NCBI GenBank assembly: GCA_023667185.1
Contig: JAMPAP010000001.1
Location: 808,712 to 853,751 of the forward strand
DNA: 45,040 nucleotides
Direction of reading: 5' to 3'
Source of the DNA: Lachnoclostridium sp.
GTDB taxonomy: Bacteria; Bacteroidota; Bacteroidia; Bacteroidales; Muribaculaceae
Below are positions 1-45,040 of the stretch, piece after piece. The notes beneath the pieces are model-generated. The model saw only the letters and a program-made list of their open reading frames with translations. It did no database searches and was not told where the DNA came from. A program made the position numbers and the translations under genes. How positions within the stretch are numbered: position 1 is the first letter of the stretch; every line of letters starts with the position of its first letter.

Positions 1-60
1 GCGGGCTATTATGAGCCAAGCATTCGTCAAGGGTGACGCATTGACAAAGTCAGGATCGAA

Positions 61-265
61 GGAGGCGCGGAGCGCCGAGGTTGTCGGAAACCCCACATTT
101 ATGTGGGGAAAGCTATCTATCTGATACTTAGGCTCGGAGAGCCGATGTTGTGGTAATGAATTAGTCGTTACCACAACATCGCCTCTCCGAGGCTCAATTG
201 CCTGAGTATCCGCTTTTCCCCACATAAATGTGGGGTTTCCGACAACCTCGGCGCTCCGCGCCTCC
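61..265. repeat. 205-bp nested inverted repeat (palindrome)
   Basis: The outer arms at about 61-113 and 212-265 are nearly perfect reverse complements of each other, with one extra A in the right arm. They contain the self-complementary stretch CCCCACATTTATGTGGGG. Inner arms at about 130-156 and 168-194 pair with few mismatches around a short centre, so almost the whole segment could fold as one long hairpin or cruciform. A decayed relative of one half occurs at 44872-44938. The element lies 5' of a small gene whose paralog sits beside that second copy. No ORF of interest was seen here. The role is unknown; a mobile or REP-like palindromic element is possible. Confidence 0.85.
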
Positions 266-401
266 CTCGATGTAATTTCTTTTGGAGTGCATCCCGACAT
301 TAATTTAACATTATGCCACATAGGGTAAAGTTGAGGATACCCATTTTATTTTTTTATGATCACCTAGCGCTATTACGGACTCTTCAACTCTCATACAATA
401 A

Positions 402-429
402 CTAAAAACTAAAAACTAAAAACTAAAAA
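402..429 (+). repeat. Heptanucleotide tandem repeat (CTAAAAA)x4
   Basis: Four exact CTAAAAA units are followed directly by CTACTTC. They lie about 45 bp upstream of the -7 box of the small gene at 499-933. The same position upstream of the paralog at the right end holds 20 units of a related heptamer (CTAACAA or CTAACGA in gene orientation). The remaining sequence from 266 to 401 shows no gene or recognisable site. Confidence 0.85.
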
Positions 430-472
430 CTACTTCATGCCACTATGGTCATTTTCGGGTGAAAGAGCTATG

Positions 473-480
473 TATTTTTG
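473..480 (+). promoter_or_regulatory. -7 promoter box TATTTTTG
   Basis: This fits the Bacteroidetes -7 consensus TAnnTTTG and lies 19 nt before the ATG at 499. The flanking block from about 430 to 480 is conserved upstream of the right-end paralog, for example CTACTTC, GCCA(C/T)TATGGTCA and GTATTTTTGC. That conservation supports a real promoter. Confidence 0.65.
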
Positions 481-498
481 CAAAAATTACATAGCATT

Positions 499-933
499 AT
501 GAAACAGTTAGCAGTATCGCGGAGGTTCCGCACAAGTATTATCGAGAAAATTTCGTCATCTTTTTCTGGAGAGATGGCAGAGCATCTTATCACCTTGGCT
601 GATAGCCTTATGACAGAAGGCGTTATGCCTGACCTGTCAAAGGAAAATCAGATGACCCAGTCGATATTCCGTTACATATCATCGGACATCCTGACAGCCA
701 TCGAGCGCTCCCGCAAAGCACGCCAGCGTGCAGCAGAGCGCAAGCAGAAGAAGGGCGAAAGTCAGCCAAAGACCATCTATGTGGCTAACCTGGGCATGAC
801 ACTCATTGAGGGCAGAGACTTTGTGAAAAATGGTTGCAAATTTTCGATAAATCCCAACGTAGGGCTGACGCGGCAGCAGCGACGCCAGGCTGAGCGCCAG
901 CTTGAGCAAACCGAGCGCTCCCGGCAATACTAA
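499..933 (+). CDS. Small basic protein of unknown function, paralog of the gene at 43976-44500
   Basis: 144 aa from the ATG at 499; an upstream TTG in frame at 478 is less likely because the paralog aligns from this methionine (MKQLAVSRRF versus MKKLAVSRKF). Residues 1-80 are helical and end in a strongly basic stretch (ERSRKARQRAAERKQKK). The C-terminus is also basic (LTRQQRRQAERQLEQ). Between these ends, about 45 residues share nothing evident with the paralog. The N-terminal pattern (GEMAEHL, a spacer, PDLS, then a basic helix) loosely resembles DUF6291-type proteins, but I do not recognise the family with certainty. There is no signal peptide or membrane segment, and the charge suggests nucleic-acid binding (inference). 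The gene is monocistronic, with its own promoter, a tandem repeat and a palindrome upstream. Confidence 0.75.
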   Translation: MKQLAVSRRFRTSIIEKISSSFSGEMAEHLITLADSLMTEGVMPDLSKENQMTQSIFRYISSDILTAIERSRKARQRAAERKQKKGESQPKTIYVANLGMTLIEGRDFVKNGCKFSINPNVGLTRQQRRQAERQLEQTERSRQY

Positions 934-944
934 GGCTTTGAGAT

Positions 945-975
945 TTTGAAAATTGAAGGGATTTTGTTATCTTTG
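945..975 (+). promoter_or_regulatory. Promoter of the parC operon
   Basis: TTTG at 945-948 and TATCTTTG at 968-975 are separated by 19 nt, an excellent match to the Bacteroidetes housekeeping promoter. The start codon is 21 nt further on. Confidence 0.8.
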
Positions 976-996
976 CAGTCTAAGTAATCTTGATAC

Positions 997-3714
997 ATGA
1001 GCGAAGATATCACACCCAACGAAATCCCTGACGATGAGCTGAATGTAGAGCCGACTGCCGACAAAGAGCCGACTGCCGACGAGCTGCTTCCTACTGATGG
1101 CTTTGACCCTCAAATAATTGTAGACATGACCGATGACACGGTGCGTCACCGGTTGCGCGGTATGTTTCAGAGCTGGTTTCTCGACTATGCGAGCTACGTT
1201 ATTCTCGAACGTGCCGTGCCGCATATCGATGATGGTCTGAAACCTGTGCAACGACGTATCCTGCACTCGATGAAGATACTTGACGATGGCCATTTCAACA
1301 AGGTGGCCAACATCGTCGGTCACACCATGCAGTTTCATCCTCACGGTGATGCTTCAATCTACGAGGCTCTCGTGCAGCTTGGCCAGAAGGATCTGCTTGT
1401 GGAGACTCAGGGTAACTGGGGAAATGTGCTGACTGGTGCATCAGCGGCTGCCGGCCGTTATATCGAGGCGCGTCTGTCGCCGTTTGCCCTCGATGTGATC
1501 TACAATGCCAAGGTAACGGAATGGACTCCCAGCTACGACGGCCGCGCCAAGGAGCCGGTGGTCTTCCCGGTGAAGTTTCCGCTGCTCCTGACCCAGGGCG
1601 TCGAAGGTATTGCCGTAGGCCTCAGCTCAAAGATTCTTCCTCATAATTTCAATGAGATTATCGATGGCGCTATAGCATATCTCAAGGGTGAAGATTTCAC
1701 GTTGTATCCTGACTTTATCACCGGCGGCTCCATTGATGTCAGCCGCTATAACGATGGCGAGCGCGGAGGCGCTGTAAAAATCCGCGCCAAGATCGAGAAA
1801 CTTGACAACAAAACCCTTGCCATCACCGAGATACCTTACGGAAAGACCACTGCTACGGTCATCGAGTCGATCCTCAAGGCTTTCGAATCAGGCAAGATCA
1901 AGATACGTAAGGTGGAGGATATGACCACTGACCATGCATATATCCTCGTCCACCTCCTCCCGGGTACATCGAGCGACCGCACAATCGACGCTCTCTACGC
2001 ATTCTCTGACTGCGAAGTATCAATATCGCCCAACTGCTGCGTGATCTCTGACAACAAGCCTCATTTCATAGGGGTCAGTGACGTGCTCCGCCACAACGTA
2101 GACAACACCCGCGAGATTCTCCGCAAGGAGCTCACCATACAGCTCGACGAGGTAAACCTTCAGCTGCATTACCTGTCGCTGGAGCGTATATTCATCGAGA
2201 AGCGCATCTATAAGGACAAGGGTTACGAGGAGAGCGAAAACCGCGAGCAGGCCATAGAGCATATCCGCGGCCGCCTCGAAAAGTATGCCAAAAATCTTCT
2301 GCGCCCCATCTCTGACGATGACATCATACGCCTCTTCGATATCAAAATGGGTCGCATCCTGAAGTTTAATGCCGCTAAATGCGATGAGCAGATTGCGGCT
2401 CTCAATGCCCGCGCTGACGAGCTGAAGGCTCATCTGGCTACGTTGACCGAATATACCATCCGCTGGTTTGAAACCCTGAAGGAGAAATATGGCCATGCGT
2501 TCCCGCGCCGCACTCAGATTCGCAGCTTTGACTCCATCCAGGCTGCCACTGTGGCCGAGGCCAACGAGAAGCTTTACATCAACCGCGAGGAGGGATTCAT
2601 AGGCACCGGACTGAAGAAAGATGAGTTCCTGTGTAACTGCTCTTCGATTGATGATGTGATAATCTTCTACAAGGATGGCCGATACAAGATAGTGAAGGTG
2701 GCTGAAAAGCTGTCGGTTGGCAAGAATGTGCTTTATGTCAATGTGTTCAAGCCCAAGGACAACCGCACCATCTACAACGTGATTTATCAGAAAGGGCGTG
2801 GCGGCACTTATTACATGAAGCGATTCTCCGTAACCGGTATCACACGCGACAAGGAATACAACATCATCCCCGGCGATGTAGTTGCAGGACAGCGCGTTGC
2901 TTGGTTTACGGCTAATCCCAACGGTGAAGCCGAGATAGTGAAAGTAACCCTGAAGCCCAAGCTGAGGCTCAAGACGCTGCAGTTTGACGTCGACTTCTCA
3001 GGCATTGCCGTCAAAGGGCGTGGAGCCATGGGTAACATCGTAACCCGCAACGAAGTACACCGGTTCTCTCTCAAGGAGAAGGGTGGCTCGACACTGGGCG
3101 GACGCAACGTATGGTTTGATCAGGATGTCAACCGTCTCAACTACGATGGCCGCGGCCGGCTCCTAGGCGAGTTCAACTCCGGCGACCTTATCCTGGTGAT
3201 ACTCAACAATGGAGAATTTTTTACCACCTCATTCGAGGCGTCCAACCACTATCCGGAGAACATCCTCCGTATCGAGAAATTTGACCCCAACAAGATATGG
3301 ACCGCCGTGCTCAACGACGCTGACCAGGGGTATCCTTACTTGAAACGATTTAAGTTTGAGCCGGTCAACCGCCCGCAGCGTTACCTTGGCGAGAATGAAA
3401 AATCCACCCTCATCCTGCTCACTGACGAACCGGGCGCACGATTAGAAGTGACATTCGGCGGCGGCGATTCGTTCCGCGAGAAGATGGAGATCGTGGCTCA
3501 CGAGTTTATCGCCGTGAAGTCATACAAAGCTAAAGGTAAACGATTGACTATGTACACCTTGGGCGAAGTTACCGAGCTTGAACCAGTGGAAATGGAAGCC
3601 GAGCCTGATGAGGCTGATGATAACGAACCTGTGGACGTAGAGCCCATCGAGCCTGAACGTAGCGACGACGAGGTGCGCGATGAAATCACCGGACAGCAAC
3701 GACTTTTTGACTGA
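997..3714 (+). CDS. parC: DNA topoisomerase IV subunit A (ParC)
   Basis: 905-aa type IIA topoisomerase A subunit, which cleaves and rejoins DNA for decatenation together with ParE (not in this window). The winged-helix region carries SYVILERAVPHIDDGLKPVQRR and FHPHGDASIYEAL, and the catalytic tyrosine is Tyr155 in GRYIEARLS. The C-terminal half is the DNA-wrapping domain, followed by an acidic tail. An acidic N-terminal extension contains the repeat EPTAD twice. The last residues, GQQRLFD, resemble a sliding-clamp-binding QxxLF peptide. Length and sequence style fit Bacteroidetes ParC rather than GyrA, though gyrase A cannot be excluded by eye. Its TGA overlaps the next ATG (TGATG), implying translational coupling to the DUF3316 gene. 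Confidence 0.93.
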   Translation: MSEDITPNEIPDDELNVEPTADKEPTADELLPTDGFDPQIIVDMTDDTVRHRLRGMFQSWFLDYASYVILERAVPHIDDGLKPVQRRILHSMKILDDGHFNKVANIVGHTMQFHPHGDASIYEALVQLGQKDLLVETQGNWGNVLTGASAAAGRYIEARLSPFALDVIYNAKVTEWTPSYDGRAKEPVVFPVKFPLLLTQGVEGIAVGLSSKILPHNFNEIIDGAIAYLKGEDFTLYPDFITGGSIDVSRYNDGERGGAVKIRAKIEKLDNKTLAITEIPYGKTTATVIESILKAFESGKIKIRKVEDMTTDHAYILVHLLPGTSSDRTIDALYAFSDCEVSISPNCCVISDNKPHFIGVSDVLRHNVDNTREILRKELTIQLDEVNLQLHYLSLERIFIEKRIYKDKGYEESENREQAIEHIRGRLEKYAKNLLRPISDDDIIRLFDIKMGRILKFNAAKCDEQIAALNARADELKAHLATLTEYTIRWFETLKEKYGHAFPRRTQIRSFDSIQAATVAEANEKLYINREEGFIGTGLKKDEFLCNCSSIDDVIIFYKDGRYKIVKVAEKLSVGKNVLYVNVFKPKDNRTIYNVIYQKGRGGTYYMKRFSVTGITRDKEYNIIPGDVVAGQRVAWFTANPNGEAEIVKVTLKPKLRLKTLQFDVDFSGIAVKGRGAMGNIVTRNEVHRFSLKEKGGSTLGGRNVWFDQDVNRLNYDGRGRLLGEFNSGDLILVILNNGEFFTTSFEASNHYPENILRIEKFDPNKIWTAVLNDADQGYPYLKRFKFEPVNRPQRYLGENEKSTLILLTDEPGARLEVTFGGGDSFREKMEIVAHEFIAVKSYKAKGKRLTMYTLGEVTELEPVEMEAEPDEADDNEPVDVEPIEPERSDDEVRDEITGQQRLFD

Positions 3715-4574
3715 TGAAACGCATTTATAACCTTCTAATCGCAGTCATCGTTGCTGTAACAGCCCTGCCCGTGATGGCTGCCGAGGCTGACTCTGTAGAG
3801 ATTCTGCGACCGGTAAGAGCAGCTTATACAGCTGAGATTGGCTCCTCGCATCTTGCTGACACTTACCTCACTCCCCTACGCTATGACGGTATTCACGCCG
3901 CTCTGGCTTATCAGCGCTACCAGGCCATGAAGTTTGCCCCCGAGCGCTGGACTATGAGCCTGACGCTTAACCTTGGCCTCGATAAGGCTGACAACCCGGC
4001 GCGTAACGCCACGATGTGGAACCTCGCCTTGGATGCCGACTGGGGCATGATGCACCGCTGGCGCGTGCATCCGCTGCTTACTCTTGCGGCCGGCGGCTCG
4101 ACAACCATCAGTGCCGGAGCACTTTACAATGCCCGCAACGGTAACAATCCCGTGTCAGCAAAAGCCTCATGGACAGTGGATGTCACCGGATATGCTGCTT
4201 GCCATCTCACGATCGGCCACCTGCCCGTGACAATAGTCTACCGTCCTACAATTCCGGTAACCGGCGTTTTCTTCTCGCCCGACTACGGCGAGCTGTATTA
4301 CGAGATCTATCTCGGAAACCACTCCGGGCTCTGCCACGGTGCATGGTGGGGCAACTATTTCCGCATGGACAATCTCCTAACGGCCGACCTGGAGTTTGGC
4401 GCCACCTACCTCCGTGTAGGGTATCACGGCGGCATCTTCTCAAGCAAGGTCAACGATATCACTACCAATGTTTTCACTCACTCGTTTGTCGTAGGTATCT
4501 CGGGCGAATGGTTGAGTCTTAACCCGCGCAAGCCCCGGAGCTGCAAGTCGCGTATTGTTCAAGCCATTTACTGA
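3714..4574 (+). CDS. DUF3316-like secreted/outer-membrane-associated protein
   Basis: 286 aa with an N-terminal signal peptide ending near VMAA (residues 1-23). The rest is rich in aromatic residues and alternating polar/hydrophobic strands (for example TADLEFGATYLRVGYHGG), suggesting an exported beta-rich, possibly outer-membrane barrel protein. The sequence resembles the Bacteroidetes DUF3316 family, whose function is unknown. It overlaps parC by one base and the downstream S41 peptidase gene by one base; both junctions read CTGATGAAACG. The three genes therefore appear to be one translationally coupled operon. Confidence 0.75.
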   Translation: MKRIYNLLIAVIVAVTALPVMAAEADSVEILRPVRAAYTAEIGSSHLADTYLTPLRYDGIHAALAYQRYQAMKFAPERWTMSLTLNLGLDKADNPARNATMWNLALDADWGMMHRWRVHPLLTLAAGGSTTISAGALYNARNGNNPVSAKASWTVDVTGYAACHLTIGHLPVTIVYRPTIPVTGVFFSPDYGELYYEIYLGNHSGLCHGAWWGNYFRMDNLLTADLEFGATYLRVGYHGGIFSSKVNDITTNVFTHSFVVGISGEWLSLNPRKPRSCKSRIVQAIY

Positions 4575-5593
4575 TGAAACGTTATCTGCCACTGCTATTG
4601 CTGTCACTGATTCTCAGCATCGTGACCGCGTCGTGCCATAAACTCGAAAATCCCGCTAATGATCCCATAGGCAACTTCGAAGCACTATGGACTATCCTTG
4701 ACGAGCATTACTGCTTCTTTGCCGAGAAGGATGTCGACTGGGAAGCGGTTCACGCCAAATATCGCCCCCGCATCTCGGATGAGATGACATCCGAGGAACT
4801 TTTCAACGTGTGTGCTGATATGCTTGACGAGCTCCGCGACGGCCATACTAACCTCATATCGTCGTTCAACACCTCTTACTATCACGACTGGTGGAGCAAC
4901 TATCCGCAGAATTTCTCCTGGCGCCTTGTCGAGCAATACTATTTCAACTTCAACTATCTATCGGCATCAGGACTCATTTATGGATATCTGAATGATAATG
5001 TGGGCTATATCCGCTATTCGTCATTTGCCCAGCCTGTAGGTGAGGGCAACCTTGACAATGTGCTTTTCTACCTGCGCGGCGCCTCAAGGCTGATCATTGA
5101 CATCCGCGACAATGGTGGCGGCGACATGACTAATGTGGAGACGCTCGTGGCGCGATTCATCGACGCTCCTACCCTCGCCGGATATATTGTCCACAAGACA
5201 GGCCCGGGTCACAAGGATTTTTCCGAACCGTTTGCCTACACTTACAATCCTGCCGGTGCAGGGCGCATCCGCTGGGCTAAGCCGATAGTGGTGCTTACAA
5301 ACCGCTCTACATTCTCCGCGGCCAACAACTTTGCCTCGATAATGAAGCTGCTGCCTCAGGTGAAGATCGTGGGAGCTCCTACCGGTGGCGGTTCAGGTAT
5401 CCCTTACAACTCGGAGCTGCCCAACGGCTGGGGTGTGAGATTTTCAGCCTGCCCGGTATATGATGCACAAATGGTATGCACCGAGCCGGGAATCACCCCT
5501 TCGGATGGTTGCTACGTGGATCTCGAACCGCAGGCCGCACTTGAAGGCCACGACACCATGCTTGACTTTGCAATAAATCTTATCAACAATTGA
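4574..5593 (+). CDS. S41-family peptidase lipoprotein
   Basis: 339 aa. A lipoprotein signal peptide with lipobox TASC places the acylated cysteine at residue 21, so the protein should be anchored in an envelope membrane. The body matches the tail-specific/tricorn-like S41 fold: an N-terminal helical region, then IDIRDNGGGD and TNRSTFSAANNFAS. Ser248 is the probable nucleophile. I see no clear PDZ domain, as in other short Bacteroidetes S41 lipoproteins. It is the third gene of the parC operon, with its start overlapping the DUF3316 stop. The substrate is unknown. Confidence 0.85.
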   Translation: MKRYLPLLLLSLILSIVTASCHKLENPANDPIGNFEALWTILDEHYCFFAEKDVDWEAVHAKYRPRISDEMTSEELFNVCADMLDELRDGHTNLISSFNTSYYHDWWSNYPQNFSWRLVEQYYFNFNYLSASGLIYGYLNDNVGYIRYSSFAQPVGEGNLDNVLFYLRGASRLIIDIRDNGGGDMTNVETLVARFIDAPTLAGYIVHKTGPGHKDFSEPFAYTYNPAGAGRIRWAKPIVVLTNRSTFSAANNFASIMKLLPQVKIVGAPTGGGSGIPYNSELPNGWGVRFSACPVYDAQMVCTEPGITPSDGCYVDLEPQAALEGHDTMLDFAINLINN

Positions 5594-5647
5594 CGAACCA
5601 TTATCACCGGCCATTTGTTATAAAAGGGATATCAATTGTTTATTCTT

Positions 5648-6502
5648 ATGAGACTCAACGGCCGACGTGAAAGTAATAATGTGGATGACCGACGCCGGTC
5701 ATTCGGAGGTAAGGCGGGATTAGGTATAGGTGGCGTGATTGTCGCGGCGCTAATAGCCTGGTTTATGGGTGGAAACCCGCTCGATGTACTGATGTCTAAC
5801 TCCGGATCGCTTTTCTCCGGGCAAGAGCAAGAGTATACACCTACGGAGCAGGATGAGGAGCTTGCACGGTTTTCAAGCCAGATCCTTGCCGGAACGGAGG
5901 ATGTGTGGAGCGAGATTTTCAACCAGATGGGGATGACCTACGAGCCGCCGAAATTAGTGCTCTACACCGGCTCTATACAGAGCGGCTGTGGAGGCGCAAG
6001 TTCGTCTATGGGGCCATTTTACTGCTCGGCTGACCCGACGGTGTATATTGACCTGTCGTTTTTCACGCAGATGAAGCAGACTCTCGGAGCCGATGGCGAC
6101 TTTGCTTACGCCTACGTCATAGCCCATGAGGTGGGACATCATGTGCAATATCTTCTCGGCATACTCGACGATGCCCATAGCCTGATGGCGCGCCAAAGCG
6201 AAACGGAGGCTAACCGTACGAGCGTAAAAATCGAGCTGCAGGCCGACTTCCTTGCCGGAGTGTGGGCTCACCATGACAATGCGCGATTTTCTTCCCTTGA
6301 GCCGGGCGATCTGCAGGAGGCTCTTGACGCTGCCCACAAGATAGGCGATGACTATCTGCAGCAGAAGGCGCAAGGTTACACCGTGCCCGAGTCGTTCAAC
6401 CATGGTACATCTGACCAGCGCTACCGCTGGTTCAGCAAAGGCTTCACCACCGGCGACTTGCAGCAAGGCGACACCTTCGCCCTTCCCTACAATAGCCTTT
6501 GA
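5648..6502 (+). CDS. YpfJ-type neutral zinc metallopeptidase
   Basis: 284 aa from the ATG at 5648; a TTG at 5636 is in frame but less likely. A short basic N-terminus (MRLNGRRESNN) precedes a glycine-rich membrane segment at roughly residues 25-45. The catalytic zinc motif is HEVGHH (His160, Glu161, His164), and the downstream LQADFLAGVWAHH is the conserved second block of the family. The usual family features are intact: a single N-terminal membrane anchor and one metalloprotease domain. The physiological substrate is not known. It is separated from the S41 gene by 54 bases and is probably transcribed separately. Confidence 0.88.
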   Translation: MRLNGRRESNNVDDRRRSFGGKAGLGIGGVIVAALIAWFMGGNPLDVLMSNSGSLFSGQEQEYTPTEQDEELARFSSQILAGTEDVWSEIFNQMGMTYEPPKLVLYTGSIQSGCGGASSSMGPFYCSADPTVYIDLSFFTQMKQTLGADGDFAYAYVIAHEVGHHVQYLLGILDDAHSLMARQSETEANRTSVKIELQADFLAGVWAHHDNARFSSLEPGDLQEALDAAHKIGDDYLQQKAQGYTVPESFNHGTSDQRYRWFSKGFTTGDLQQGDTFALPYNSL

Positions 6503-6528
6503 TAAATAGCTGGAAAGTGCTATCTTTG
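6498..6528 (+). promoter_or_regulatory. Promoter of the 6536 membrane-protein gene
   Basis: TTTG at 6498-6501 and TATCTTTG at 6521-6528 are 19 nt apart. The upstream box overlaps the stop codon of the metallopeptidase gene. The ATG follows the -7 box by 7 nt, giving a very short leader. Confidence 0.75.
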
Positions 6529-6535
6529 CAGCATC

Positions 6536-8446: not shown

Positions 8447-8466
8447 AATGATAATGTTTTTGACTG

Positions 8467-8474
8467 CAAATATA
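8467..8474 (-). promoter_or_regulatory. -7 box TATATTTG of the DUF4143 ATPase gene
   Basis: On the minus strand TATATTTGC lies 20 nt before the ATG. The -33 region falls at the edge of the 23-bp repeats and lacks a clear TTTG, so the repeats may replace or modulate the upstream element. Confidence 0.6.
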
Positions 8475-8490
8475 ATACTTTATTTTTATA

Positions 8491-8600
8491 ATTCCGTGAT
8501 TTGGCCGATTTTTATTCCGTGATTTGGCCGATTTTCATTCCGTGATTTGGCCGATTTTCATTCCGTGATTTGGCCGATTTTCATTCCGTGATTTGGCCGG
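8491..8600. repeat. Five 23-bp direct repeats upstream of the DUF4143 ATPase
   Basis: The unit begins ATTCCGTGATTTGGCCGAT followed by TTTC or TTTT. Copies start at 8491, 8514, 8537, 8560 and 8583 (the last is incomplete), an exact 23-bp period. The array fills the space between the ATPase promoter and the 3' end of the MATE gene. A short open frame across it is only the translated repeat. The shared TTGGCCGATT core resembles the TTGCCGATT sites in front of the second DUF4143 gene. Confidence 0.95.
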
Positions 8601-8605
8601 TGGAG

Positions 8606-17259: not shown

Positions 17260-17334
17260 TGGTAGCCCATAGGAGAATCGAACTCCTCTTTCAAGAATGA
17301 AAATCTTGCGTCCTAGCCGATAGACGAATGGGCC
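17260..17334 (-). tRNA. tRNA-Glu (UUC), copy 1, with encoded CCA
   Basis: The minus strand reads GGCCCATTCG...ATGGGCTACCA. The anticodon stem CAAGA/TCTTG holds loop TTTTCAT, giving anticodon UUC. The T arm has GTTCGATTC. The acceptor pairs with a G1-U72 wobble, and the CCA end is encoded (17260-17262). It is identical over 72 nt to copy 2, exactly 400 bp away. Confidence 0.95.
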
Positions 17335-17623: not shown

Positions 17624-17662
17624 TATAAAATCTGATAATTGATATCTTGTGTTAATTATTTG

Positions 17663-17734
17663 TAGCCCATAGGAGAATCGAACTCCTCTTTCAAGAATGA
17701 AAATCTTGCGTCCTAGCCGATAGACGAATGGGCC
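17663..17734 (-). tRNA. tRNA-Glu (UUC), copy 2, without encoded CCA
   Basis: This is identical to copy 1 across the 72-nt body, with anticodon UUC. The genomic sequence after the discriminator A is CAA rather than CCA, so the CCA end must be added enzymatically. It is the first element of the tRNA-rpsT-tRNA unit. Confidence 0.95.
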
Positions 17735-36545: not shown

Positions 36546-36622
36546 TGGGCTATAAAACCTCACATTTCTACCGACGTCTGGAATATTTTTTCGGCCTAAC
36601 ATATCAATCATTATCTATAAAC

Positions 36623-38821
36623 ATGAAAATCAAACTATTAGCAGGCATTGCCATGATAGCCTGCATCAGTATCGGAGCCGCAGCGGATAGTCCGGTGGCT
36701 CGCGACAAGGCTACCGTCACCGCCGGGAATGCCCGATTTACCGTACTTACCCCGAGGATGATACGTATAGAATATAGCGACAAGGCTACATTCGAGGATC
36801 AACCCACATTCACAGTAGTCAATCGTGATCTTCCCGTTCCACATTTCACCGTATCACGCCACGACGGCGTGATGACCATCAGCAGTGACAGCCTTGTGCT
36901 CTCCTATCGCGAAGGGCTCGACCCGCGCATCGGCGACCGCGCCCTAACCATCCGCCTCAATGACGGCACCGAGTGGCACTACGGCAAAAAAGACTCGCTC
37001 AACCTCAAGGGCACAACCCGCACGCTCGACGGCTACGATGGCGGCAAGGCAGCTCTGCCCCTTGACGATGGCATAATCTCGCGCTCAGGATGGGCGGTGA
37101 TCGACGACTCGCCCGCTACGGTGCGCTCTGACGGTAGCCGCTCGCTGGCGTTTGGCGACTCGGTGCAGGGTGTACCCTGGGTAACCAAGCGCACTGATCC
37201 TGAAGCTCTTGACATCTATTTCCTCGGCTACGGCCATGATTACACCGCCGCATTGGGCGACTATACCCGCATAGCCGGAAAGATGCCGATGCCTCCGGTG
37301 TATGTCCTCGGCTACTGGTATAGCAAATTTGCCCCATATTCAGCTGAGGATTACCGCACTATGATAGCTGACCTTGACGCCAATGATATCAATATTGATG
37401 TGATGATCCTTGACGTGGACTGGCACTGGGACGGCGGCGAGCCTTACAGCACCGGACGCGGCGCCTGGACCGGCTGGACCTGGAACACTAACCTCATCCC
37501 CGATCCCGAAGGGCTGCTGAAACATATCCATGACCGCGGACTTCACCTGGCACTCAACCTCCATCCTGCCGATGGCGTAGCCAGCGACGAAGACGGCTAT
37601 ACTGACATCTGCGCTGACCTCAGCATGGATGCAGCAGCCGGAAAGCAAGTGCCCTGGGCTCTTCATGACAAGGACTTCTACCAGACATTCTTCAAGCATA
37701 TCATGCGCGCACGCGAAGAGCAGGGTGTAGACTTCTGGTGGCTCGACTGGCAGCAGAAACTCACCAACGACAGCGTGGATGGCCTCGGCCAGACATTCTG
37801 GTGCAACCACGTGTATTTCAACGACATGAAGAACAATCGCCCTGACAATCGCCCCCTGATCTATCACCGCTGGGGCGGTCTCGGCAGCCATCGCTATCAG
37901 ATAGGCTTCTCGGGCGACACTTATATCAACTTCGAGACCCTCGCTCAGGAGCCTCTCTTCACCGCCACAGCATCCAACGTATGCTACGGCTATTGGGGTC
38001 ATGACCTCGGCGGTCACCTGCTCGCCCCCAACGATCCTAACGATCCCGAGCTCCTTATCCGCTGGATGCAGTTCGGCGTATTCACCCCCATCTTCCGCAC
38101 CCACGCCTCAAATCAAGGCAACATCGAGCGTCGTATCTGGAAATATGCCGAGATGCCTGCGATGCGTGACGTAGTGAAGCTTCGCTACCGCCTGCTCCCC
38201 TACATCTATGCAGCCGCCCGCGAGAGCTACGATACCGGAGTGGGTATATGCCGCCCGATGTATTATGCTTATCCCGAGCTTGAGGAGGCTTACAACAATC
38301 CCGGCCAATACTTCTTCGGCAACGATATCATCGTAGCTCCGGTCACCCGCGCAGCTGAAGGAGCTACCGTTAGCAAGGATGTATGGCTTCCCGAAGGGAC
38401 ATGGTATTGCCCTGACCTGGGCCGCAGCTTCGAGGGTGGACAACACATAAATGCCGACTTTACCCTCGCGCAGATCCCCTACTTTATCCGCAAGGGTGCT
38501 GTAATACCGGCCAATCCGGCCGATGTAAAGCGCGCCAATAGCGTGTATCCTCACATCATCCTCGACGTAATCGCCGGTGCTGACGGCGAGGCCACGCTCT
38601 ACGAGGATCCGGGCGACAACCGCGACTATGCCACTGAATATTCCACTACCAAGCTTCTGCATAACAATGGCCGTCTGACCGTGCAACCGCGCCGGGGCAC
38701 ATTCAAAGGGATGCCCGATAGCCGCAGCTACACCATCCGTGTCCATGACGGCAACGGCGACATCCGTACCATCGAAGTACCCTCATCTCCTTGCAACGAA
38801 CCACTCGAAATAAGCTTATAA
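36623..38821 (+). CDS. GH31 alpha-glycosidase, secreted
   Basis: 732 aa from the ATG at 36623; the in-frame TTG at 36545 lies in the promoter. A signal peptide covers residues 1-21. An N-terminal beta-sandwich precedes the (beta/alpha)8 domain. The catalytic nucleophile is Asp375 in FWWLDWQQK and the acid/base Asp432 in FSGDTYINFE. A C-terminal beta domain with a DUF5110-like segment follows. The family includes alpha-glucosidases, alpha-xylosidases and alpha-galactosidases; substrate is not certain. Its stop overlaps the next start by one base (TAATG), so it is coupled to the GH27 gene and probably acts on the same glycan in the periplasm. Confidence 0.9.
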   Translation: MKIKLLAGIAMIACISIGAAADSPVARDKATVTAGNARFTVLTPRMIRIEYSDKATFEDQPTFTVVNRDLPVPHFTVSRHDGVMTISSDSLVLSYREGLDPRIGDRALTIRLNDGTEWHYGKKDSLNLKGTTRTLDGYDGGKAALPLDDGIISRSGWAVIDDSPATVRSDGSRSLAFGDSVQGVPWVTKRTDPEALDIYFLGYGHDYTAALGDYTRIAGKMPMPPVYVLGYWYSKFAPYSAEDYRTMIADLDANDINIDVMILDVDWHWDGGEPYSTGRGAWTGWTWNTNLIPDPEGLLKHIHDRGLHLALNLHPADGVASDEDGYTDICADLSMDAAAGKQVPWALHDKDFYQTFFKHIMRAREEQGVDFWWLDWQQKLTNDSVDGLGQTFWCNHVYFNDMKNNRPDNRPLIYHRWGGLGSHRYQIGFSGDTYINFETLAQEPLFTATASNVCYGYWGHDLGGHLLAPNDPNDPELLIRWMQFGVFTPIFRTHASNQGNIERRIWKYAEMPAMRDVVKLRYRLLPYIYAAARESYDTGVGICRPMYYAYPELEEAYNNPGQYFFGNDIIVAPVTRAAEGATVSKDVWLPEGTWYCPDLGRSFEGGQHINADFTLAQIPYFIRKGAVIPANPADVKRANSVYPHIILDVIAGADGEATLYEDPGDNRDYATEYSTTKLLHNNGRLTVQPRRGTFKGMPDSRSYTIRVHDGNGDIRTIEVPSSPCNEPLEISL

Positions 38822-40014
38822 TGAACCGAATAGCTCTTATTCTGCTGGCAGCACTGATGATGCTGCCGGCAGCTGCCCAGAAACAGGAAGGCCTCGTGAT
38901 GACTCCCCCGATGGGATGGAACAGCTGGAACAAATTTCATACTGACATTGACGAGGATAAAATCAAAGGCGTGGTGGATGCCCTGATCGAGACCGGGCTG
39001 CGCGATGCCGGTTACATATATGTAAACCTCGACGACGCATGGCATGGTCAGCGTGACTCGCTCGGGTTCATCCAGTGTGACCCCGTGAGATTCCGCTCAG
39101 GCATGAAAGCGCTTGCTGACTATATCCATGAGCGCGGCATGAAATTCGGCGTCTATAGTGATGCCGGCGAGCAGACCTGCGCGCTCTATCCCGGCTCACG
39201 CGGCCACGAATACCAGGACGCCATCCAGTATGCCCGCTGGGGCGTGGACTACCTGAAGTTTGACTGGTTTCGCCAGCCTTACGTAGGCGCTCAGGGCGCA
39301 TATACACTGATGCGTGACGCGCTGTATTCCACAGGCCGCCCTATCGTGTTCAGCATCTGCGAATGGGGCGAAAACAATACCCGCGACTGGGCACCCTCGG
39401 TGGGGCATCTGTGGCGCACCGGCGGCGATATCGGAGCATATTTCTCCGAATCACCCTGCCACGAGAAGCCGATACTTTGGTGTATCGAAAACAACAATAC
39501 CTACCGCGAATGTGCAGGTCCTAACGCCTGGAACGACCCTGACAACCTTGAAGTGGGCAACGGCATGACCGCAAATCAGGATCGTGCCCACTTCTCGATG
39601 TGGTGCATAATGGCCTCGCCGCTTATCCTTGGCAACGACGTGCGCAGCATGAGCGATGAGACTCTTGCCATCGTGAAAAACCGCGACGCCATAGCCATTG
39701 ACCAGGATCCCCTCGGCATTCAGGGATTGCGTTACAAGAATGAAAACGGGCTGCAATACTGGTTCAAGCCGCTGATGAATGGCGACTGGGCAGTGTGTGT
39801 GCTCAATACCAACAAAGTACCCGCGCAAGTCACCCTCGACTGGAAAGCTGACTTCGACTTCACTGACGACCTCAGCCGCCGCGCCACTGACTTTGCCAAC
39901 ATCGACTACCGCCTTTACAACGTGTGGACCGGCAAGACTGACGGCAATACCGCCAAGCCCCTCACCATCACCATCCCCGGCGAGGACGTAGCAATGTACC
40001 GCCTCCGCCGCTAA
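38821..40014 (+). CDS. GH27 alpha-galactosidase, secreted
   Basis: 397 aa from the ATG at 38821 (1-nt overlap with GH31). A signal peptide covers residues 1-19. The GH27 opening TPPMGWNSWNKF and NLDDAWHG are clear. The nucleophile is Asp148 in YLKFDWF and the acid/base Asp203 in RTGGDIGAYF. A C-terminal beta domain ends the protein. It should release terminal alpha-galactose from oligosaccharides such as raffinose-type sugars or galactomannan. Together with GH31 it forms a two-enzyme operon without an adjacent SusC/D pair in this window. Confidence 0.92.
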   Translation: MNRIALILLAALMMLPAAAQKQEGLVMTPPMGWNSWNKFHTDIDEDKIKGVVDALIETGLRDAGYIYVNLDDAWHGQRDSLGFIQCDPVRFRSGMKALADYIHERGMKFGVYSDAGEQTCALYPGSRGHEYQDAIQYARWGVDYLKFDWFRQPYVGAQGAYTLMRDALYSTGRPIVFSICEWGENNTRDWAPSVGHLWRTGGDIGAYFSESPCHEKPILWCIENNNTYRECAGPNAWNDPDNLEVGNGMTANQDRAHFSMWCIMASPLILGNDVRSMSDETLAIVKNRDAIAIDQDPLGIQGLRYKNENGLQYWFKPLMNGDWAVCVLNTNKVPAQVTLDWKADFDFTDDLSRRATDFANIDYRLYNVWTGKTDGNTAKPLTITIPGEDVAMYRLRR

Positions 40015-40022
40015 AGCGACAT

Positions 40023-40052
40023 TACACCCCGCCCGCCTCCGGGTGGGGTGTA
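40023..40052. terminator. Terminator after the GH31-GH27 operon
   Basis: TACACCCC-G-CCCG pairs with CGGG-T-GGGGTGTA around a very short loop, followed by TTGTATTATATT. It lies between the convergent GH27 and DUF262 genes. Confidence 0.8.
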
Positions 40053-40067
40053 TTGTATTATATTATA

Positions 40068-42176
40068 TTATAGGTAGTTGGGCAGTAGAGAGCGAAGGAG
40101 GGCTACACGGTCAACGAGGTCAGAGTCGCCATCGTGAGGTATCTCGATGGTTTCCAGGTCCTGATGTTGATCGTCACCGATGGTTTCACGGAATATGGCT
40201 GAATGGCGGTCGTTATCGAGGTATATTTTCGTTCCTTCAAGGGTAAGACCGTTGCCATACTCGCCGAGGTTCCATCCCGGCTCGCCCGAGAGGGCGAGAA
40301 GGATACCTTCCCAGTGGCGGCCGCCGGTGCTGAGAGCCGTGTGCATCGTATAGAAATGGCATCCTTTGGTATCACCGGGGAAATAATACTTTCCATACTG
40401 CGACTTGAGGATTACGACGGGATATTTGATGAAATAGTATCGCCAGTCAAACTTGTCCAGCTGATTGCCAATCCACTTTTCGACAATTCCGGCGCAGGTA
40501 TCACCCTCATTTATATCCTTAAGTAATCCGGAGATGGCACTGCCGGCTCGTTGGCGGAAGTTAACATGGGTGTTCGGGCCGAAAAAGTCACGCCATATCT
40601 TCTGGTCCTTGCCCGGGATGAGTACTCGCCATCGGTTTTCCCTATAGGATATATCTCCATAGGTCAGCAAGGCGCGTGACAGTTCAATCCACTGCTCCTC
40701 AGCATAAGAATCACTGAACGTAGAGTTGAATGTCTCGAAGTAGTCGTAATTATCGGTACCGATCAGGCATGTTGAGCCAAGCAGGAGGTTATTGTTTTCG
40801 AGAAAGGCAAGGTGGAGCTCGTGCTCTTCATCGTTAGCTTCGATCCATTCTAATTTTGCGGCTTCCTCAACTTTCTGCTGCTGGTTGAAGGAATTTGATT
40901 CAAGCCCAATCGAGCCTGACAGGATCAACCGTTCAGTCTCATTGACCATTGCTGCGTAACGTTCCTTGCGGTATTCATTTTCAGAGTTATACACCAAGTT
41001 TCTAAGCACCCTTATTCTCGTGCGGAACTCTTGCTCGGTGACCGTCGACTTGTGGGTCAGATAGGTGATGCAGCCCCACAGCAGCAGAATGTTCGGCATA
41101 GTCAGCTTATCGCCGCGGCTGAGTCGCCTCAGGAGGTTGACCGGCTGATGGAGGTTGACAAGAAATGACTTCTCAGCAGGCTGATTGTCAGCAAACCATC
41201 GGCTGAAAAACTCATCAGAGTCAAGTCCGACCCATACATCAAGAGCCTTCTCAAGCAATCGCTGGTTATCCTTGCCGGAATATACGGCCTCGATCATCTC
41301 AAAATCATCGGCCGGGGCATCATTGCCTGACTCTTTGAGGCATATAATGTCAGCAATATAATGGATATACCGCAAAAGGCTATCGTCGATCACCGGCAGC
41401 TCCCGGCCATCCTCTTCACGTATATCCCAGAACACGTCGATCCATACGGTATCAATCTTTTCAGAGAAGTCAGCGTCGTCCACCACGCTGTCGAGTTCGG
41501 CCTTGAAGTGCTCAAACGGAGTCAACGGCTTGCCTCGCGAGTTCATTTTTATATAGATCTCATCGGAGATTCCGAGCTCGTCAAGGTCAGCGAAGAAGAA
41601 AGAGATTTTTGGAAGTTTGTCCCAATACTTCGCTTCCGGATTTTCGCCATAGAAATTATCATTAAGTGCATCGAGCATCACGAGCATACCCTCCACGGTA
41701 GGGTCATTTTTCCACAGCAGGATAAACCGTGGATCCTCCTTTATTTCGTGGGATAAGGAGCCGATAAACTCCGGAGTAAATCTGCGGGTGAGAAACTCGC
41801 AAAAAGCGCGGGTGGTGTGGCGCGTCATGTAAGTAAAGCGCTCTATGAAGTCACACCCCTCGGTAACGTTTTCGCGGCGCGCCACCAGCCAATGCAGCAG
41901 GAAAAGAGTGGTCAACCGCTGCTGGCCATCAAGGGGTATAAAAGCCACATTATCATCAATTTTCTCGTAGGAACCGTAGACGAAGTCAAGATTCAGCTCC
42001 TGACCCGCCGACACTGCATCATGAATAGCCTTCACAAACGACTTTCTGATCTCCGAGGCCGAGCTGCGTCCTTGGGCATAATCCCTCTGAATCATAGGGA
42101 TTACGATAGGGATGTTATGCTCCACGCCGCGCTCGTCAGTATATCTGAATATCTCTTTAAATGTTTTCTTATCCAT
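40068..42176 (-). CDS. DUF262 protein (GmrS-like), second gene of the pair
   Basis: 702 aa from the ATG at 42176; an in-frame TTG at 42200 overlaps the upstream gene. DUF262 is marked by MIQRDYAQGR and PLDGQQRLTTL (residues 83-91), the nucleotide-handling motif of GmrS/DndB-like proteins. No HNH motif of the DUF1524 type is visible in the C-terminal part, which ends in a domain I do not recognise. DUF262 proteins occur in GmrSD-type modification-dependent restriction and in phage defence. It follows the first DUF262 gene by 7 nt and is presumably translated from the same mRNA. Confidence 0.82.
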   Translation of the reverse strand: MDKKTFKEIFRYTDERGVEHNIPIVIPMIQRDYAQGRSSASEIRKSFVKAIHDAVSAGQELNLDFVYGSYEKIDDNVAFIPLDGQQRLTTLFLLHWLVARRENVTEGCDFIERFTYMTRHTTRAFCEFLTRRFTPEFIGSLSHEIKEDPRFILLWKNDPTVEGMLVMLDALNDNFYGENPEAKYWDKLPKISFFFADLDELGISDEIYIKMNSRGKPLTPFEHFKAELDSVVDDADFSEKIDTVWIDVFWDIREEDGRELPVIDDSLLRYIHYIADIICLKESGNDAPADDFEMIEAVYSGKDNQRLLEKALDVWVGLDSDEFFSRWFADNQPAEKSFLVNLHQPVNLLRRLSRGDKLTMPNILLLWGCITYLTHKSTVTEQEFRTRIRVLRNLVYNSENEYRKERYAAMVNETERLILSGSIGLESNSFNQQQKVEEAAKLEWIEANDEEHELHLAFLENNNLLLGSTCLIGTDNYDYFETFNSTFSDSYAEEQWIELSRALLTYGDISYRENRWRVLIPGKDQKIWRDFFGPNTHVNFRQRAGSAISGLLKDINEGDTCAGIVEKWIGNQLDKFDWRYYFIKYPVVILKSQYGKYYFPGDTKGCHFYTMHTALSTGGRHWEGILLALSGEPGWNLGEYGNGLTLEGTKIYLDNDRHSAIFRETIGDDQHQDLETIEIPHDGDSDLVDRVALLRSLLPNYL

Positions 42177-42183
42177 AGCCAGT

Positions 42184-43908
42184 TCACTTAGAATATACAA
42201 TGCGCATTATCTCATCGTAGTAGGCATCACGATCCCTGTCCGTCCAGAGGTAAGGCTGATTTTCACCTGCCGGGGAGTAGTATTTTGTGAACACATTGCG
42301 TGTGCACACCGGGATAAAATACCCCTGACGGTCAAGGTTAGCTATATCGTTACGTTTCACCTCAAAGACTGAATTATTGAGCGAGGCGTTGGCGTCAGTC
42401 TTGAGCAGAGCGAGATTTTTTATAGAATGCATATTGGCATCCTGATCCTCGTCTTTGAGATTAGCCGTAAAGAGAGCGGTGACCCTACCGAAAAGGTCGT
42501 TAAACAGCACACCTCCTATTGCCTCCATCTCGATGGCACTCTCCACATCAGCCTTGATCTTCATTATCTCATCTGACTGAGGAAGAGCGTCAATGGCGGC
42601 CAACTGACGGGAAAGCCAGCTATGGCGCTCGCGTTCAAAGTGCAAGCCCTCAGAGTTTTGGGCATGGATATGCTCGAGACTCCATCCGGGCGCCTTCTTA
42701 AACCGGTAGAAGGGAAAGCGCTCTTCGGAGTTATCCATGGTCTTGATATTGAACCATGTGAGGATGTTTTTGATACTCGTATTGTCAGCTACGGTGCCGT
42801 AACGTAAAGAGAGGACATCATCAGCATTTACCAGCCTGTGCTGTATCCTGCCCTCAAGAAACTTGAGCCGGGCTGTCTTTTTCATATCCTTTGTATCCTC
42901 GATCAGAGAAGAGATCTTATCTCCGAAAATCACCAGACAGCCGGCTCTGTTATATAGCTCCCTGTCCTCGAACCACACCTTCAGGGTGTCAAAATAATAG
43001 ACTATCTCATCCCACAGCTCCTCCACTGTCTTCTTGCCGCCGGTGATCAGGTCGTTGAAATAGAAGAAAGTGTAATATTTCTCGCGCTCGTTGGTTCGCT
43101 TCTTCGACATCATGTCAAAGATAAGCTCCAGGCGTGTAGGATATTTGCCTGGCTTGGCATTGGTAAGGAAAGCCCAGAATTCCGAATTTCTCAGCTCTTG
43201 CTCCATCCTCTCCCAGAGGAGAGCAATCTCGTGTTGATTAAGGTTCTTTTCAGAGCGAACGGATTTAAGACTGTTTCTGTTGAGGAAGAGCGCCTTGATA
43301 AGCTCGGCATTCGTCAGCGGGATGCGGCCGATGTTAAGACGCTTGAACAGCTCGTGTCCATTCTCAGTTTTATCCACCTCATACCATAGCACCTTCACCT
43401 TCGTTGACAGAAGCTGGTAGAGGTCGATACCTACACTTGTAGGGTCCACCTTATCATTCAGCCATTTCTGGATGGTCCGGTAAGCATTATACAGGTAGCG
43501 GTAGTCGATATACCGGTTCATTTCGCTTTCAGCCTGCTGCGGGTCAGTAAAAAGCGAGTTGAGGTAAGTCCAGCTTGACTCCCTTGTATCGTAAGCAATT
43601 GAATAATTAGGGTTAACCTTAGGAATCCACTCCTTCAGCGAGCTGATGATCAGATAAAGCGTGGTGAGACGCTGCTGACCGTCGATCAGTTCATATTCCG
43701 CAAGGTCATCTATCACATCTTCATTTGAAAGTCGCTTGACGACAATAGGTTGAAGATAATACGAATTCTGATTATCCCTATGCTCATAGATATCATCCAG
43801 CAGACGGGTAACCTCATCTGAAGTCCAACGGTATCCGCGCTGATACGAGGGTATTCTGAAAACGCCCGTAATCCGGGTCACCACCCTTTTTCCGAAGTCA
43901 TTAGCCAT
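42184..43908 (-). CDS. DUF262-DUF1524 protein (GmrSD-like nuclease), first gene of the pair
   Basis: 574 aa from the ATG at 43908; the ORF extends to a less likely TTG at 43938, inside the promoter. N-terminal DUF262: RIPSYQRGYRW and DGQQRLTTL (residues 76-84). C-terminal DUF1524: SLEHIHAQN (His413, His415) and the later NLALLKTDANASLNN, an HNH-type nuclease site. This is the fused GmrSD arrangement known from type IV restriction of modified phage DNA. The promoter lies directly upstream on the minus strand. Next to it is the right-end repeat module. Confidence 0.87.
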   Translation of the reverse strand: MANDFGKRVVTRITGVFRIPSYQRGYRWTSDEVTRLLDDIYEHRDNQNSYYLQPIVVKRLSNEDVIDDLAEYELIDGQQRLTTLYLIISSLKEWIPKVNPNYSIAYDTRESSWTYLNSLFTDPQQAESEMNRYIDYRYLYNAYRTIQKWLNDKVDPTSVGIDLYQLLSTKVKVLWYEVDKTENGHELFKRLNIGRIPLTNAELIKALFLNRNSLKSVRSEKNLNQHEIALLWERMEQELRNSEFWAFLTNAKPGKYPTRLELIFDMMSKKRTNEREKYYTFFYFNDLITGGKKTVEELWDEIVYYFDTLKVWFEDRELYNRAGCLVIFGDKISSLIEDTKDMKKTARLKFLEGRIQHRLVNADDVLSLRYGTVADNTSIKNILTWFNIKTMDNSEERFPFYRFKKAPGWSLEHIHAQNSEGLHFERERHSWLSRQLAAIDALPQSDEIMKIKADVESAIEMEAIGGVLFNDLFGRVTALFTANLKDEDQDANMHSIKNLALLKTDANASLNNSVFEVKRNDIANLDRQGYFIPVCTRNVFTKYYSPAGENQPYLWTDRDRDAYYDEIMRIVYSK

Positions 43909-43937
43909 TATGATAAAAATAAGTGAACACTGTGACA

Positions 43938-43970
43938 CAAATTTACATATAATATATGTATAGTCACAAA
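43938..43970 (-). promoter_or_regulatory. Promoter of the DUF262 operon
   Basis: On the minus strand TTTG (43967-43970) precedes TAAATTTG (43938-43945) by 21 nt. The start codon at 43908 is about 29 nt further. Confidence 0.7.
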
Positions 43971-43975
43971 ATATT

Positions 43976-44500
43976 TCACGTATTTTTTACATTATTTTTT
44001 ACAATGTACCCTTTGCTATCGATATGGTACATTTTATCGATAGCGCGCTGACTTTTACGGCGCAACTGGCGGGAAAGAAACTTCCCGTTATCAGCAATAA
44101 TCTTATAATCGTCAGGGTCGAAATCCGGACCTATTTCGGTAATACGATATACTATATGACCGTCACTTTTTGTCGACGAAGTAATCAATACATCTTCACC
44201 GGTGTGAATATTACGAATTGAGAAACAAGGTCTTTGGGTTAATATGAGTCTATCCTGCGCATCGCGAACACGTTCTCGCGCCTTGCGGCTGCGAGCCACA
44301 GCCTGCTGTATCTCCGCTGATATATAAGTGAATATAGATTTCACCATCTGATCCTCAGCCGAGAGATCCGGCATAGTACCCTCTGTCATCATTGAGTCAG
44401 CAAGCGACACAAGACGCTCGGCCATCTCACCGGTGAAAGAACTGTTAATTTTGTCAAGAACTTTGATGCGGAACTTCCGCGACACTGCTAACTTTTTCAT
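43976..44500 (-). CDS. Small basic protein of unknown function, paralog of the gene at 499-933
   Basis: 174 aa from the ATG at 44500; the upstream in-frame TTG is not conserved in the paralog. Residues 1-80 match the left-end protein closely (LAVSRKFR, SSFTGEMAERLVSLADSMMTEGTMPDLS, IFTYISAEI, ARSRKAR). The C-terminal block LSRQLRRKSQRAIDK also matches. The middle, about 60 residues, is unrelated and of different length. There is no signal peptide or membrane segment. The promoter region and upstream heptamer array are shared with the paralog, so the whole unit appears duplicated in inverted orientation. Function is unknown; nucleic-acid binding is inferred from charge. Confidence 0.75.
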   Translation of the reverse strand: MKKLAVSRKFRIKVLDKINSSFTGEMAERLVSLADSMMTEGTMPDLSAEDQMVKSIFTYISAEIQQAVARSRKARERVRDAQDRLILTQRPCFSIRNIHTGEDVLITSSTKSDGHIVYRITEIGPDFDPDDYKIIADNGKFLSRQLRRKSQRAIDKMYHIDSKGYIVKNNVKNT

Positions 44501-44569
44501 ATTCGTATATTTTTTCAGCAAAAATACACAGCAGCATCACGCAAAAGTGACCATAATGGCAGGAAGTAG

Positions 44570-44709
44570 TTGTTAGTTGTTAGTCGTTAGTTGTTAGTTG
44601 TTAGTCGTTAGTTGTTAGTTGTTAGTTGTTAGTCGTTAGTTGTTAGTTGTTAGTTGTTAGTTGTTAGTCGTTAGTTGTTAGTCGTTAGTTGTTAGTCGTT
44701 AGTTGTTAG
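44570..44709. repeat. Heptanucleotide tandem repeat, 20 units
   Basis: Twenty consecutive 7-bp units run without interruption: 14 TTGTTAG and 6 TCGTTAG (units 3, 6, 10, 15, 17 and 19). In gene orientation they read CTAACAA or CTAACGA, closely related to the CTAAAAA units at the left end. They end at the same conserved CTACTTC/GCCA block upstream of the gene promoter. Confidence 0.95.
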
Positions 44710-44871
44710 ATGGTAACTGTTAGCCCTTTAGGGCGGTATCGTCTATAACCCCACGCGACTGCAGGAGCGTGGGGCACAGGGCCAACATCAATTGGAGCCT
44801 CGACGAGGCGATATCGTCAGTGATAGTTTTGCTATGATAGTCGTGCTCATAAGAGGTGTCGCTGTAATTTT

Positions 44872-44938
44872 GTCGTTACCACGACATCGTTTTTCCGAGG
44901 ATCAATCACCTGAGTATCAGCTTTCCCCAACATAAATG
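44872..44938. repeat. Diverged copy of half of the left-end palindrome
   Basis: GTCGTTACCACGACATCG, then TCCGAGG, then CCTGAGTATC and CTTTCCCCAACATAAATG match positions 164-230 in order and spacing, with scattered substitutions. The matching other half is missing or too altered to recognise. From 44710 to 45040 I see no gene. Short GC-rich hairpins occur, such as GCCCTTTAGGGC and CCCCACGC...GCGTGGGG. Confidence 0.75.
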
Positions 44939-45040
44939 CAATGCAGTTAAAATAACGACGAAAGAGGCTCGGAGAGCCAGGGGTTAGTGTAACCCCACCC
45001 GGAGCTTGCGGAGGCCACTGAAAAAGATATCAAATTTCGG

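Follow-up and report, generated by a model that had tools for sequence, protein, structure and literature searches.

What is the small basic protein gene that lies, behind similar repeats, at both ends of a 45,040-nucleotide stretch of a Muribaculaceae genome (G000:C11:808712-853751, hereafter the window)? A sequence-only reading had taken gene and repeats together as a dispersed repeat module that carries its own gene, comparable in concept to repetitive extragenic palindromic (REP) elements with an associated protein. We followed the gene, its promoter and the repeats through this 2.29-Mb genome and its relatives, and arrived at a different answer, in which the small genes are likely multi-copy accessories of a dispersed, domesticated podovirus-like particle, likely a gene transfer agent (GTA), known here from its genes alone.

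Results

One promoter precedes small genes and phage-derived genes

The promoter block of the small gene also precedes phage head, packaging and lysis genes, which the sequence-only reading had overlooked. Its 14-mer has 31 matches in the genome at no more than one mismatch, versus 0 in the reversed control, and the fuller motif, CCATTATGG-N24-TAnnTTTG, has 23 strict matches versus 0. The spacing between the two parts is exactly 24 bp in all 23, though 20-32 bp was permitted, and a looser form of the motif gives 56 matches versus 3 in the control. Fifteen of the 23 strict sites precede small genes. Strict sites also stand before an operon with the major capsid protein (MCP; SU10_MCP, E 6e-46), an operon with the portal (phrog_156, E 5e-28; P22_portal, 1e-14), a lysis amidase (phrog_822, 4e-59), a small membrane protein and a DUF6808 protein gene (Table 1). 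A site with one mismatch precedes the gene of an 813-aa protein (C11:634 kb). In relatives, homologues of this protein (E 2e-49 and 3e-45) are encoded immediately before the terminase, a position that suggests the label tail-like. The motif is matched with 2 mismatches before the left window gene and with 3 before the copy on contig C27. A separate promoter-like block, consisting of a GCCACGATGGTC-like sequence, a GC-rich hairpin and TAnnTTTG, recurs at C11:575079, C11:606447, C23:2341 and C23:97.

The small gene has 17 matches in the genome, so that there is indeed, as first proposed, a dispersed family with a gene and promoter of its own. In 32 sequences of the protein about 75 N-terminal residues are conserved, followed by a variable linker and in most cases by a short basic C-terminus; S7, A67, R70, S71, A74 and R75 (left window protein numbering) are invariant and F57 nearly so. 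Twenty of the 32 members match DUF6291 (PF19808) weakly, at E up to 1 and at best 2e-5, with scores among the members shown of 12.3-17.7 bits against a Pfam cut-off of 27.2 bits. The family matched none of the known structures (best E 0.61), and one small protein compared with annotated phages gave no match. Its job is a guess: the build would fit a protein that binds nucleic acid or sits within the particle. A role as the small terminase is disfavoured. The better candidate is a 124-aa protein of the portal operon, because it is similar (33% over 60 aa, E 3e-5) to a 140-aa protein whose gene directly precedes that of the large terminase (TerL) in contig L397, where the TerL itself is confirmed.

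At an E value of 1e-5 the small family is matched in 14 of 27 same-genus genomes and in one genome of another genus, with up to at least 12 matches per relative (the best 12 candidates were scored). Around eight small genes of the relative G184, the only shared k-mers were the promoter and a flanking CCTTTT. On contig C1 of G177, 11 small-family places show a gap coefficient of variation of 0.44 (simulated P 0.004), a post hoc value from the best 12 of 21 candidates. Such even spacing was seen in that one genome and is not visible by eye in the present one, and we do not use it as evidence.

The phage-derived genes lie apart among host genes

The MCP and portal operons are situated amid ordinary host genes, and reading the open reading frames around them, with no systematic search made, revealed no integrase or phage replication gene. 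The large terminase is present here as its C-terminal part (C11:853854-854210, + strand; residues 510-634 of the query), directly past the scaffold gap at the right edge of the window. It was matched in 18 of 19 same-genus genomes, this genome counting with its fragment, and is whole in relatives. Phage-derived head and packaging genes in a host chromosome, which characterize a GTA, are thus found here as capsid, portal and large terminase, the last incomplete in this assembly.

In the genus of the window the genes lie apart; on one contig of G130, for example, the capsid is at 1.176 Mb, the portal at 1.073 Mb and the terminase at 1.307 Mb. Among other genera, the single-contig genome G173 has capsid and portal about 534 kb apart, and in G005, G022 and G219 the capsid, a protein of about 180 aa and the portal form one short operon among host genes, which in G022 adjoins tail-like and terminase genes. 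The IMG/VR contig L394 (9.4 kb) has tail-like, terminase, capsid and portal genes in the same order as the host genome G022, and loci of this type in hosts may be wrongly filed under phages. In locus L217 (G006), the portal gene is followed on its own strand, after about 1.3 kb, by a homologue of the regulon amidase (64% over 67 aa).

The nearest named relatives of the capsid are in Duncaniella sp., a genus of Muribaculaceae (72% identity), and the gene also occurs in Muribaculaceae bacterium Isolate-110. Among annotated phages, the nearest reach identities of about 35% (capsid) and 32% (portal). At these values, the Bacteroides phages BS-TP4, BKO1-TP3 and BF1-TP2 are the likely kind of ancestor, as is the phage- or prophage-like contig L397 (MCP 43%, TerL present); the TerL also resembles gp7 of BS-TP4. 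In the three Bacteroides phages the genes are together in one phage genome of 64-68 kb, whereas here they are dispersed.

Divergent from the portal operon is the gene of an XRE-S24 (CI/LexA-type) repressor (C41:23085-23768, - strand; L152:4585-5268), of which the examined loci of relatives contain no homologue. Genes for a Y-family polymerase and a UmuD-like protein, named by eye, lie near it.

Capsid, portal and terminase are conserved with the host and under purifying selection

The MCP was matched in 270 of 297 genomes of the family, 192 of 204 good genomes and 29 of 30 genera, and the portal in 277, 194 and again 29, respectively. By our count, 239 of the MCP matches have E < 1e-70, and the gene is mostly single-copy where present. 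At the level of the order, 33 of 393 genomes have the MCP at E 1e-30, 31 of those in seven families. The MCP and portal counts indicate conservation along the host lineage, unlike a sporadic prophage.

Between G142 and G201, codon positions 1, 2 and 3 differ by 2.5, 1.5 and 27.4% in the MCP and by 3.0, 2.0 and 28.9% in the portal, and in terminase pairs the third positions likewise differ far more than the first two. MCP, portal and TerL are under purifying selection. For the small genes, two local paralogues differ at 8.8, 7.4 and 29.7% of the three positions, and one between-species pair, which is less clear, at 6.3, 1.9 and 10.1%. The divergence of MCP and portal is correlated over 15 genomes (r 0.61, 0 of 2000 permutations), and that of portal and terminase over 8 genomes (r 0.79, 5 of 2000 permutations).

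The promoter drifts between lineages and stays common to the genes of one genome

In same-genus relatives the site often reads GCATTATCGCACC, with lineage-specific flanks and a near-constant distance from TAnnTTTG. A regular expression for the drifted motif, composed after inspection of the relatives' promoters, was applied to every one of the 90 capsid, portal and small-gene loci that had been fetched. Within the genus it was found upstream of the MCP at 14 of 18 loci, of the portal at 15 of 22 and of small genes at 24 of 25, versus 0 on the opposite strand and 0 in reversed sequence over the same 95 kb. The motif of the present genome was found at its own capsid (1/1), portal (1/1) and small genes (3/3). 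In 230 kb of surrounding DNA the expression matched five times, before capsid, portal and holin-type genes, versus once in reversed sequence.

The 16-bp site occurs 46 times in G184 (control 3) and 28 times in G117 (control 0). Thirty of these 74 sites were fetched, and by our assignment 21 of them precede 13 small, 2 capsid, 2 portal, 2 tail-terminase, 1 holin and 1 AAA_25 ATPase genes; the holin, in G184, is a Phage_holin_4_1 with a score above the cut-off, and the ATPase belongs to G117. In both genomes the terminase follows a tail-like gene that has the site before it, and the motif presumably acts on the terminase through this gene. Within the genus, then, the motif drifts between lineages yet stays common to the unlinked genes of each genome.

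Arrays and palindromes lie outside the conserved unit

Heptamer 21-mers have 557 overlapping matches in the genome versus 0 in the reversed control. Heptamers, promoter and gene occur together at 14 of the 17 small-gene copies in our reading, and 14 of the 23 strict promoters, the capsid and DUF6808 promoters among them, have an array within 70 bp upstream, so that the co-occurrence proposed by the sequence-only reading holds on the side of the promoters. It does not hold on the side of the repeats, which are far commoner than the gene: 400 kb of C11 with a single small-gene copy contain 25 arrays of at least two units, 18 matches of one palindrome core and 15 sites of another. This is one of the outcomes that the sequence-only reading had itself named as breaking the module idea. 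In relatives, no heptamer array turned up in 13 stretches (230 kb) or in the small-gene and motif loci (176 kb), and a search for three palindrome cores in 230 kb plus 180 kb, with loci of the same genes among them, found none. At the C22 copy a palindrome sits between the promoter (C22:88037) and the gene (C22:88296), and the palindrome therefore moves independently. Promoters and arrays are associated in this species, with the arrays outside the conserved unit, which is promoter plus gene.

Thirty-two tandem arrays were found in 57 loci of relatives, none consistently at promoters by eye; in loci L287 and L284 (relatives G117 and G184), 8-bp arrays such as AAGGTTAT replace the heptamer, again unlinked to promoters by eye. 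A sequence like the regulon promoter, such as GCCATGATGGTCGTGC...GTAATTTTGTCG, recurs inside the right palindrome relic of the window (Table 1) and at C11:303002, C17:10480, C17:9124 and C23:12262, and at least twice it runs straight into the palindromic repeat core, as if the palindrome had once carried a promoter.

The ends of the window

As first described, each end of the window has a palindrome or its relic, a heptamer array, the promoter block and a small basic protein gene (Table 1), and the two ends are mutually inverted, aligning at 72% over 293 bp that cover heptamers, promoter and gene start. Since the inverted-repeat scan reported no inverted repeat of at least 25 nt at the right end, "relic" is a fair word for the palindrome there. 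Inversion of the intervening 43 kb, which had also been suggested, is unlikely from the sequence, the longest exact inverted match between the ends being 11 nt. Both edges directly abut 100-N scaffold gaps (C11:808612-808711 and 853752-853851), and the symmetry of the ends therefore marks assembly breaks and not a structure of the 43-kb segment. Elsewhere in the window, positions 8491-8599 hold a 23-bp tandem repeat (4.7 copies, 98% alike), and two tRNA-Glu (ttc) genes (17260-17334 and 17662-17734), identical over 73 nt, lie about 400 bp apart.

Table 1 Features of the window (window numbering) and strict promoter sites elsewhere in the genome (contig:position)
Feature	Position	Strand	Remark
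Long palindromic element, nested inverted repeats	55..271	.	Outer arms 55-111/215-271, 98% complementary
Inner arms of left palindromic element	130-159/165-194		90% complementary
Heptamer array AACTAAA x4.7	400..432	+	
Regulon promoter TGCCACTATGGTCA...TATTTTTG	438..480	+	2 mismatches against looser-search consensus
Small-family gene, 144 aa	499..933	+	N-terminal region weakly DUF6291-like, basic C-terminus
Small-family gene, 174 aa	43976..44500	-	
Regulon promoter TGCCATTATGGTCA...TATTTTTG	44519..44561	-	Strict motif match
Heptamer array (AACTAAC) x20.4	44567..44709	-	
Palindrome relic	44740..45000	.	Approximate bounds
Diverged promoter-like sequence inside right palindrome relic	44831-44875 (C11:853542-853586)	+	3 mismatches
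Strict site before operon with SU10-type MCP	C11:256 kb		
Strict site before operon with P22/SU10-type portal	C41:24.7 kb		
Strict site before N-acetylmuramoyl-L-alanine amidase	C11:492 kb		Phage lysis class
Strict site before 80-aa membrane protein	C11:347 kb		Holin-like by eye
Strict site before DUF6808 protein gene	C12		
Three strict sites without clear target	C1, C17, C39		

Discussion

Proposed system and points that weigh against it

We propose a system in which head, packaging and lysis genes, dispersed along the host chromosome one by one or in short operons, would answer to one control. One dimeric regulator would read the near-palindromic site that lies some 28 bp before the -7 box TAnnTTTG and would thereby activate the small genes jointly with those for capsid, portal, tail-terminase and lysis. 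A candidate for this regulator is the S24-type repressor encoded divergently from the portal operon. The resulting particles would package DNA and exit by lysis. Because portal and terminase are present and a dedicated phage genome was not seen, host DNA would be the expected cargo, as in GTAs, and the particle is probably a GTA that packages host DNA. We infer the common regulator, the assembly of particles, and the packaging and transfer of host DNA from the gene content and its promoters.

Several observations weigh against this proposal. The rest of the large terminase was not found in this assembly, the gene was matched in 0 of 12 genomes of other families, and its divergence is only weakly correlated with that of the MCP (8 genomes, 123 of 2000 permutations). 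At eight terminase loci no motif lies directly upstream. Three of the 23 strict sites here, and 9 of the 30 fetched in relatives, have no clear target. The motif itself is shown for this genus only (in other genera MCP 1/11, portal 0/7 and small genes 0/2 loci), and within the genus it is missed at 4 of 18 MCP and 7 of 22 portal loci. Upstream DNA is short at three of these misses, two MCP (76 and 201 bp) and one portal (29 bp), and the only small gene missed carries an N within its site. G142, G170 and G201, which by capsid are the nearest relatives, account for a disproportionate share of the misses. The same three relatives have no small-family match at E 1e-5, which counts against an essential role, and with 13 of 27 same-genus genomes lacking such a match the family is either non-universal or diverging beyond detection. 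Pfam and PHROGs give no confident family for the small protein, and family searches gave no match for the 80-aa membrane protein. Of the 270 MCP matches, 31 are weak (E 1e-5 to 1e-20), 25 of them in one genus. Finally, the system is known from its genes, the particle, its packaged DNA and the transfer being reached by inference.

Alternative explanations

The alternative that survives best keeps the particle and removes the small genes from its making: the family would be a gene that is selfish or serves immunity, has acquired the regulon promoter and travels as particle cargo. Many dispersed copies, local expansion, fast divergence and the same-genus genomes without a match would suit such a gene, whereas the promoter is kept at nearly all same-genus sites tested and the copies look selected, clearly in the two local paralogues and less so in the between-species pair. 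We regard this explanation as unlikely, though a serious contender.

Rather less probable in our view is that the phage-derived set and its regulon are functional in another role, the killing of kin by lysis or a particle with a fixed cargo such as the small proteins. The lysis genes of the regulon (the amidase here, the holin in G184) are consistent with killing, and the basic C-termini of the small proteins could be cargo or contact the capsid. However, a portal together with a large terminase implies DNA packaging, and a killer consisting of a tail only would not need either.

That the genes are scattered remains of decaying prophages, with the common promoter inherited from one ancestral phage and nothing functioning, we consider very unlikely. 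The parts are indeed scattered, the local terminase is incomplete and related phages exist, but decay does not fit the presence of MCP and portal in nearly all genera, the mostly single-copy state of the MCP or the strong purifying selection, and it would not give a motif that drifts between lineages yet remains common to the unlinked genes of each genome.

REP elements with RAYT proteins combine dispersed palindromic repeats with a multi-copy gene, a likeness shared by the palindromes and small genes here, and the frequent company of heptamers, promoter and gene would agree with a gene that mobilizes palindromes and heptamers. We reject this explanation as hardly tenable, since the repeats occur without the gene here and the genes without the repeats in relatives, the promoter is common to unrelated phage genes, and no transposase, including Y1 (HUH), was found in the Pfam search of the window proteins or among the families listed for the 32 members (25 of 30 families).

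Relation to known systems

The RcGTA and CcGTA systems of Alphaproteobacteria consist of domesticated phage genes that are conserved with the host, occupy several loci and are under dedicated control; they have mostly one main cluster and a siphovirus-type tail. The system proposed here resembles them in its domesticated, host-conserved phage genes at several loci and differs in its accessory family of 10-20 copies, of which we know no example in RcGTA or CcGTA. In BaGTA of Bartonella, the GTA is tied to another phage-derived chromosomal function, run-off replication from a single replication origin. This tie to replication is a feature of BaGTA, whereas the system here is read from genes and promoters.

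The closest likeness by description is to FpGTA of Faecalibacterium, a gut anaerobe. The parts of the FpGTA account on which we draw (PMC12946183) present a likely podovirus-like system with portal, capsid, scaffold, TerL and lysis genes, arranged in one strain as two separate operons about 125 kb apart, with operon I in 12 of the 12 Faecalibacterium genomes examined there, and with particles and packaged DNA demonstrated. Common to both systems, as far as these descriptions go, are a gut anaerobe as host, a likely podovirus-like origin, portal, capsid and TerL, separate loci and lysis genes. FpGTA differs in belonging to Bacillota and in having two operons and particles that were seen, while the present system belongs to Bacteroidota and has more loci, a regulon motif, a multi-copy small gene and, so far, genes alone.

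We found no description of a GTA in Bacteroidota in the literature searched, a search that had most subscription journals and bioRxiv outside its scope. To our knowledge, an accessory gene of 10-20 copies under a GTA-like promoter has no counterpart. A bolder extension, which we hold to be doubtful, is that the 10-20 scattered copies encode a small nucleic-acid-binding protein and act as distributed starts of replication or packaging, for which the heptamer arrays could be the binding sites in this species. A headful machine whose ancestor began at a single phage site would then cover the whole chromosome, in what would be the first GTA of Bacteroidota, conserved throughout Muribaculaceae and in a number of further families of the order.

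If the proposal is true, Bacteroidota would be a further phylum in which GTA-like systems occur. The rodent gut has Muribaculaceae among its dominant bacteria, and a capsid system carried by nearly every sampled member would give a much-used model community a standing route of gene exchange. The lineage-specific promoter motif provides a handle for listing the gene set, including parts without an assigned function, and the question of whether these bacteria make DNA-carrying particles becomes directly testable in cultured isolates.

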